A stretch of DNA of 64,000 nt from Phycisphaerales bacterium. GTDB taxonomy: Bacteria > Planctomycetota > Phycisphaerae > Phycisphaerales > UBA1924. The DNA lies in contig JAIEOW010000055.1 in NCBI GenBank assembly GCA_019750095.1, forward strand, positions 1-64,000. Reading direction: 5' to 3'. The stretch's first letter is position 1. Every line of letters begins with the position of its first letter. Positions 5,995 to 7,685 of this stretch are shown piece by piece. A model generated the notes under the pieces. The model did not search any database. It saw only the letters and a list, made by a program, of their open reading frames with translations, and was not told the origin of the DNA. The translations under genes were made by a program, and so were the position numbers.

Positions 5995-6582
5995 ATGCGA
6001 CCTGCCGTGTTCCTGGATCGCGACGACACGCTGATCGTGAATCGCGCCATCACCGCGCACACGCCCTACCCGGGTTCGCTCTTTGACCCAAACCTCGTCA
6101 AACTTTGTCCAGGGGCGGCCCAGGCCTGTCGATCGCTGCGGCATGCCGGGTTTGCGCTGGTCGTCGTGACCAACCAGGGGTGCGTCGCCCGGGGTGAGTG
6201 CACGGTCGAACAGGTCGAAGCGACCAACGCCCGCGTCCGGGCGGCGGTCTTTGCCGAGGCGGGGGTCGATCTCGACGGCGTGTACTACTGCCCATACCAC
6301 CCAAAGGGCACGGTTCCGCCGTTCCACGTGGAACACCCGTGGCGCAAGCCCAATCCGGGGATGATTCTGTGGGCTGCCGATGACCTGCGTCTGGATCTTG
6401 CCCGCTCGTGGATGATCGGCGACGCCGAGCGCGACATCGTCGCAGCACTTCGGGCGGGAATCGGGCGTGCGCGGACGATCATCGTGGGCGATGCCTCGGC
6501 GGCGGAGGTGGGCCACCGCGTGGCGACGATCGCACAGGCCGCGGAGATCGTGCTGCACTCGGCAAAGGAATCGCCGCGGTGA
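5995..6582 (+). CDS. HAD-family heptose-bisphosphate phosphatase-like protein
   Basis: The start at 5995 gives FLDRDDTLI, the HAD motif I (DxD), at residues 7-15. VVVTNQG is motif II, and RKPNPGM plus MIGDAERDI are motifs III/IV. This matches GmhB/HisB-N type phosphatases, which remove a phosphate from D-glycero-D-manno-heptose 1,7-bisphosphate in LPS core synthesis. In GmhB the loop before RKP carries C-x-H and C-x-C zinc ligands. Here the loop reads CPYHPKG then FHVEHPWRKP, so the second pair is missing. FHVE is encoded by a parS-like palindrome. It overlaps the next gene by 4 bases (GTGA). Confidence 0.85.
   Translation: MRPAVFLDRDDTLIVNRAITAHTPYPGSLFDPNLVKLCPGAAQACRSLRHAGFALVVVTNQGCVARGECTVEQVEATNARVRAAVFAEAGVDLDGVYYCPYHPKGTVPPFHVEHPWRKPNPGMILWAADDLRLDLARSWMIGDAERDIVAALRAGIGRARTIIVGDASAAEVGHRVATIAQAAEIVLHSAKESPR
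6320..6335. other. parS-like palindrome, site 1
   Basis: The 14-base perfect palindrome GTTCCACGTGGAAC (6321-6334), followed by A, lies inside the HAD phosphatase gene. It matches the known bacterial ParB-binding consensus (TGTTnCACGTGnAACA) and is identical to the parS core used in Pseudomonas. A second identical copy lies 776 bp downstream. Confidence 0.7.
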
Positions 6583-7685
6583 GTCGCTCATCGAACGACA
6601 TTCCCCGCGTCGTCGGCAAGCCGCTTCGGTTGCTGGTGATCTGTCCATCATGGCTCGGCGATGTGGTGATGGCGACACCCGCACTTCGGCTGCTGCGAAA
6701 ATCACTTCCCGGCACGTTCATTGGTGCGCTCGTGCGGCCCGGGTTGGATGAGTTGCTGGCCGGGAGCGATCTGGTGGATGAGGTGCACGTGGATCGGGCG
6801 CGGGGCGTGATGGGACCGAAGGTGGTGGCCAGTCGGATTCGACCGCGCAGATACGACGCCGCGCTGCTGCTGACAAACTCGTTCTCGACCGCGCTGATCG
6901 CTCGGCTGGCGTTCATCCCACGGCGCGTGGGTTATGACCGCGATGGGCGGGGTTTGCTGCTGACGGATCGGATCAAGCCCGATCGCGTTCCGGGTTCGGG
7001 CGCGTTTGCGTGCGTGCCGGCGGTGGAGTACTACTTGCGGGCGGGGCGAGCTTTGCTCGGGATCGAGGGCGGAGGGGGTGGGGGGGGTGGGGGGATGTTC
7101 CACGTGGAACTTTCGTGTTCGCCCGAGCAGGAACGTGCGGGGGAGGCGGTTCTGGAGCGCGTGGGGATCGCACCCGGAACGAGGTACGCCGTGCTGAATC
7201 CCGGGGCGAACAACCCGGCGAAGCGCTGGCCCGGGGAGAGGTTTGCCCAGATTGCCGCACATCTGGTGCAAAAGCACGGTTTGCACGTGCTCGTGAGCGG
7301 CGGGCCGGGCGAGAGTGAACTGGTGGATGCGGTGGTCGAGAAGAGCGGCGAGCCGGCGCGGGTGCATGGGCTGGTGAAGGCGGGTGTGACGATCGGTGCG
7401 CTGAAGCGCGTTGTGCGCGGGGCGGCGCTGATGGTGAGCAATGACACGGGGCCGAAGCACATCGCGGCGGCATTCAAGGTGCCGACGGTGACGCTGTATG
7501 GGCCGACCGATCCGCGGTGGACGACGTTGCCGGCGAGTTCGGCGGCGTTTGTGGAGATCGTGGCCGATCCAACACTGCCCGCGGATCAGATTGCGGATGA
7601 TCATCCGGAGCGGTGCGCGATCGATCGGATCGAGCTCTCGCGCGTGCGTGAGGCGGTGGACGCACTGCTCAGCGGTGCGTCATAG
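6579..7685 (+). CDS. glycosyltransferase family 9 (LPS heptosyltransferase)
   Basis: This 368-residue protein transfers heptose (or a related sugar) to the LPS core at the inner membrane. The N-terminus LLVICPSWLGDVVMATPAL and the C-terminal nucleotide-sugar site (VLNPGANNPAKRWPG, then SNDTGPKHIAAAF and TLYGPTDP) are typical of GT9 enzymes of the WaaF type. The GTG start at 6579 overlaps the HAD phosphatase stop, so the two are translationally coupled and likely act in one pathway. Between the two Rossmann domains is an odd glycine run encoded by G-rich DNA (about 7068-7095), immediately followed by FHVE from a second parS-like palindrome. Confidence 0.88.
   Translation: MSRSSNDIPRVVGKPLRLLVICPSWLGDVVMATPALRLLRKSLPGTFIGALVRPGLDELLAGSDLVDEVHVDRARGVMGPKVVASRIRPRRYDAALLLTNSFSTALIARLAFIPRRVGYDRDGRGLLLTDRIKPDRVPGSGAFACVPAVEYYLRAGRALLGIEGGGGGGGGGMFHVELSCSPEQERAGEAVLERVGIAPGTRYAVLNPGANNPAKRWPGERFAQIAAHLVQKHGLHVLVSGGPGESELVDAVVEKSGEPARVHGLVKAGVTIGALKRVVRGAALMVSNDTGPKHIAAAFKVPTVTLYGPTDPRWTTLPASSAAFVEIVADPTLPADQIADDHPERCAIDRIELSRVREAVDALLSGAS
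7068..7095. repeat. G-rich low-complexity tract
   Basis: An almost uninterrupted run of G residues codes for consecutive glycines in the heptosyltransferase interdomain linker. It directly abuts the parS-like palindrome. Length variation in such a tract would change the reading frame of the gene. Confidence 0.75.
7096..7111. other. parS-like palindrome, site 2
   Basis: TGTTCCACGTGGAACT contains the same perfect 14-base palindrome as site 1. It sits in the variable linker of the heptosyltransferase gene, in the same reading frame (encoding FHVE), next to a G-rich tract. Confidence 0.72.

Follow-up and report, generated by a model that had tools for sequence, protein, structure and literature searches.

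Perfect parS-type palindromes inside two adjacent envelope genes of a Phycisphaerales bacterium

Sites of the parS type belong to the usual machinery by which bacteria segregate their chromosomes. Chromosomal ParB loads on them before it spreads to adjoining DNA and, if other bacteria are a guide, recruits SMC there. Nine of the ten parS sites of Pseudomonas aeruginosa lie in coding sequence, and two of its good sites (parS1 and parS4) carry one outer mismatch (PMC4368675). Streptomyces coelicolor and Listeria innocua have 20-23 parS sites near the origin, ParA is absent from some species, and the number and spacing of parS sites vary much between species (PMC7333895). Recognition of parS is specified by the residue pair R173 and G201, at which positions Noc has Q and R (PMC7383237). 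Nothing was found on parS in Phycisphaerales in the literature searched.

Two palindromes in overlapping reading frames

The window analyzed here is a 64,000-nucleotide stretch from a draft genome of a Phycisphaerales bacterium (G000; 4.19 Mb, 202 contigs). The features under study are as follows.

5995..6582, + strand: HAD-family phosphatase (GmhB/HisB-N type) that holds parS site 1; Pfam Hydrolase_like, HAD_2 and PNK3P, with the family-wide EHPWRKP loop
6321..6334, no strand given: parS site 1, GTTCCACGTGGAAC, exact match, read in the frame (P)-F-H-V-E-H
6579..7685, + strand: GT9 heptosyltransferase (WaaF-like) that holds parS site 2; Pfam PF01075, E 2e-32
7070..7096, + strand: G-rich tract immediately upstream of parS site 2; it encodes a run of glycines (from the sequence)
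7097..7110, no strand given: parS site 2, GTTCCACGTGGAAC, exact match, read in the frame (M)-F-H-V-E-L

The initial annotation had described two perfect copies of GTTCCACGTGGAAC at 6321-6334 and 7097-7110 and none elsewhere in the window, and a window scan allowing up to two mismatches recovered these two matches and no other. The number expected from base composition is 0.00024 for the window and 0.016 for the genome, and none of 100 shuffled window sequences reached two copies. The genome scan that the annotation proposed returned seven exact copies of GTTCCACGTGGAAC, against none of the reversed control pattern. Both copies had also been said to fit the consensus TGTTnCACGTGnAACA; this is true of the 14-base core, which is perfect in each, but one outermost base is off both in 6320-6335 (CGTTCCACGTGGAACA) and in 7096-7111 (TGTTCCACGTGGAACT). 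The core was rightly equated with that of Pseudomonas, since P. aeruginosa uses the same one (PMC4368675). The two copies share one reading frame, giving FHVE, as had been noted, and they do so in real genes (an HAD phosphatase and a GT9 heptosyltransferase) that overlap each other. FHVE is just what a parS site encodes when it is read within a soluble protein, and both host genes probably stay functional because the site, read in this way, fits their loops.

Among Phycisphaerales relatives the phosphatase loop reads F/W/Y-x-x-E-H-P-W-R-K-P, and in most organisms outside the order it reads C-x-C-R-K-P. The annotation had proposed that conserved metal ligands of this loop were lost to parS. The second Cys pair is indeed absent, but it is absent in the whole order; because EHPWRKP replaces CxCRKP across Phycisphaerales with or without parS, the loss is an order-level trait, and displacement of the ligands by the site is rejected. 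Around window positions 6270-6350, the Phycisphaerales GmhB-type phosphatases retain CPYHP, but where the metal site would have its CxC half they carry E-H-P-W.

All 14 bases of site 1 are identical at the homologous place in gmhB of a congener, Phycisphaerales bacterium UBA4658 (G002), the nearest named relative. Third-position identity between the two gmhB genes is 55%, and 9% of their 14-mers are identical; conservation with one congener would, on its own, be weak evidence. In a second congener (G001), the gmhB loop codes for WNMEH and has no parS site. The reading length of gmhB is equal with and without the site, and therefore nothing was inserted there; a small number of base changes, in a loop already encoding F-x-V-E-H, probably created the site. 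The length of the heptosyltransferase loop with site 2 differs among family members, and a conserved E-L comes after it; the site would fill the end of the variable loop, just ahead of these residues. The matching contigs of both congeners stop at this G-rich loop.

The parB locus in this genome and its relatives

A ParB_N search of the genome found a single protein (contig C169, 8432-8722), the full length of which comprises ParB_N, HTH_ParB and ParB_C domains. Three exact copies of GTTCCACGTGGAAC (6488, 7313 and 7465) and two copies with one mismatch (7024 and 7736) lie within 2 kb upstream of this only detected parB. The two window copies are on a different contig, and the other two exact copies in the genome are intergenic (contigs C155 and C173). 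The window sites would thus be outlying members of a set that has its core cluster just upstream of parB. Residues R173, N178 and G201 of the ParB recognition helix (Caulobacter numbering) are kept in this genome and in 29 of 29 other aligned relatives; this is the residue pattern specifying parS, not the Noc site (PMC7383237). Among the ORFs listed for the 18 kb surrounding parB, none was recognized as parA.

The association of motif and gene extends to the relatives. In nearly all of 30 relatives examined, the motif or a near variant is no more than about 1.5 kb away from parB (as GTTTCACGTGAAAC in family f5), and exact copies occur in 82 of 136 family genomes, ranging from 0 to 22 per genome, with only five reversed-control matches across all 136. 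The form GTTCC-N4-GGAAC with another centre is concentrated at parB: the 176 kb of parB loci contain it 16 times (about a dozen distinct), and 1,632 kb from elsewhere contain it 5 times. A genome scan of the congener G001 gave no exact parS copy; near its parB there are three GTTCC-N4-GGAAC sites with drifted centres (L100: 5759, 5990 and 6820), which suggests relaxed central recognition or decay.

How cleanly a centromere site can be preserved within a protein-coding gene, at one codon in about 30 genomes, is shown by the NUDIX gene next to parB. Our survey covered 38 loci (parB loci L047-L076 and L253-L260; the UBA4658 site is at L094, 5321). The gene was found in 33 of these, and about 30 of them have parS, or a variant close to it, at the same homologous codon (VFHVEH). 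Of 28 Glu codons at the site 27 are GAA, compared with 34% GAA elsewhere in these genes (P about 6e-12), and selection therefore acts on the DNA and not on the protein alone; the recurrence of FHVE is due to this DNA-level selection on parS. The NUDIX parS of the genome studied here has decayed by one base (FHVQ).

The excess of copies in the genome, the cluster at parB, the presence of the motif at parB in relatives and the ParB residues together lead us to read both window sites as genuine intragenic parS, an identification that, judged from sequence, is very probably correct. From it we infer ParB binding and SMC loading at the window sites, as well as their position relative to the origin.

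Origin distance and dispersed copies

The initial annotation had suggested that this part of the chromosome may be an origin-proximal, ParB-loading region. The parS identity is well supported by the parB cluster and the ParB residues, while the origin part is suggestive only. In the draft assembly the window contig is joined neither to the parB contig (C169) nor to the dnaA contig (C146). In relatives where the genes share a contig, gmhB is 100 kb from dnaA in G008 and 92 kb from parB in G035, and in G026 the distance is 188 kb to dnaA and 261 kb to parB; in a 5.7 Mb single-contig genome (G056) it is 132-152 kb from both, and on the closed 4.1 Mb chromosome of PNC22 about 494 kb separate it from parB. 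These distances are at most suggestive of origin-proximal window sites, since those on short contigs are biased low. GC skew in 20 samples of the closed PNC22 chromosome is too noisy to locate the origin.

Sites scattered at random round the chromosome had been named as evidence against a ParB-loading region, and scatter is in part what we found, in relatives, several of which have 9-22 scattered copies with lineage-specific flanks. One such genome (G021; L077-L091, L102-L113) has 22 exact copies, most of them inside a larger palindrome, GGGGGTGTTCCACGTGGAACACCCCC (extended by GGGGGT/ACCCCC), with a common left flank GCGC...AGAGGGGG and a C-rich right flank. All 22 abut G/C tracts (P 7e-18), and the dispersed copies lie between convergent, tandem and divergent genes, often at 3' ends. 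Another relative (G152; 2.9 Mb; L277-L285) has ten dispersed copies in unrelated contexts, spread over five or more of its eight contigs; the extension AATT...AATT (CAATT/AATTG) is common to most of them. Three of its copies are spread over 609 kb of a contig (C8) that has no parB, which places at least one copy some 0.7 Mb or farther from parB.

In five relatives (G036, G088, G149, G152 and G022) a second palindrome, of the GCGC type, is found within 60 bases of the copies far more often than expected by chance, in some genera 4-17 bases from parS; near the parS copies of the present genome the GCGC motif is absent. Several of the ten copies in G088 (L234-L240) form composite intergenic elements consisting of parS, about 11 bases, TTGCGCGCGC, about 15 bases and TTTCaGAAACACGG, so that a third motif recurs there at similar spacing. 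The flanks vary by lineage and the 14-base core is constant. In the present genome any shared flank ends after about 2-4 bases, the two window sites have none in common, and a G/C tract is found near 3 of 7 sites, including that at 7097 (P 0.016).

These comparisons show a parS set that is evolutionarily labile in the family, and the dispersal does not weaken the parS reading. One tentative interpretation, which we think somewhat less probable than its opposite, is that parS in this family is no fixed origin-proximal centromere: it may have been amplified time and again into a chromosome-wide set of as many as 22 perfect sites for ParB loading, with an extended palindrome peculiar to each lineage and, in some genera, the second, GCGC-type palindrome. 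The window sites could then represent an early stage of dispersal.

Alternative explanations and described systems

Some of these flanks resemble what would be expected of a dispersed palindromic repeat (REP/MITE-like, or an in-frame insert of the Rickettsia palindromic element type) that merely contains a parS-like core. The G/C tracts at every copy in G021, most of which share extra flank, speak for such a repeat, as does the tract at three of the seven sites here. Conservation beyond the core at all copies, as in a palindromic mobile repeat, is seen in G021; in the genome studied here it is not, and the window sites have no flanks in common. An origin of the sites as insertions is rejected on the unchanged length of gmhB. 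Flanks that depend on lineage around a constant core, and the clustering of sites at parB in most relatives, also argue against a repeat, which we consider unlikely.

The intergenic location of many dispersed copies in relatives would suit operators of a transcription factor that shares the palindrome (CACGTG core), but the window copies are deep inside genes and the motif follows parB. A regulon is rejected on the gene orientation around the copies in G021, and we give operators very little credence. The palindrome could also be a coincidence of codon usage, arising from FHVE written in common codons: the peptide is compatible with both loops, and from codon fractions TTC CAC GTG GAA is expected for about 9% of FHVE. 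This is scarcely credible for two perfect copies in 64 kb at the expectation given above, the more so as parS requires GAA, the less used Glu codon (31% across nine genes of the window), and the site is retained in UBA4658.

Read as intragenic parS, the window sites belong to a known class as a further example, and they add a well-supported ParB-parS system in Phycisphaerales. The part worth following is the unusual multiplication and scatter of parS in the family, where the range of copy number, which reaches 0-13 inside one genus (that of G149 and G152), makes variation in parS number testable between close relatives.

The system has the protein superfamily, the fold and the dispersed sites in common with Noc and its binding sites (NBS). 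It differs in that the NBS core is ATTTCCCGGGAAAT and Noc has Q173 and R201, while here a parS-type site goes with R173 and G201; a Noc-binding site is rejected on these residues (PMC7383237). With P. aeruginosa ParB-parS it shares the GTTCCACGTGGAAC core, intragenic sites, a principal cluster together with dispersed sites, and single outer mismatches; six dispersed sites are imperfect in that species, whereas the outlying copies here are perfect 14-mers (PMC4368675). In Pseudomonas parA adjoins parB; no parA was recognized in the 18 kb surveyed here. The 22 sites of the relative G021 are comparable with the high parS numbers of S. coelicolor and L. innocua; unlike the origin-proximal sites of those species, the sites of G152 extend over at least five of eight contigs, one of them at least about 0.7 Mb from parB.
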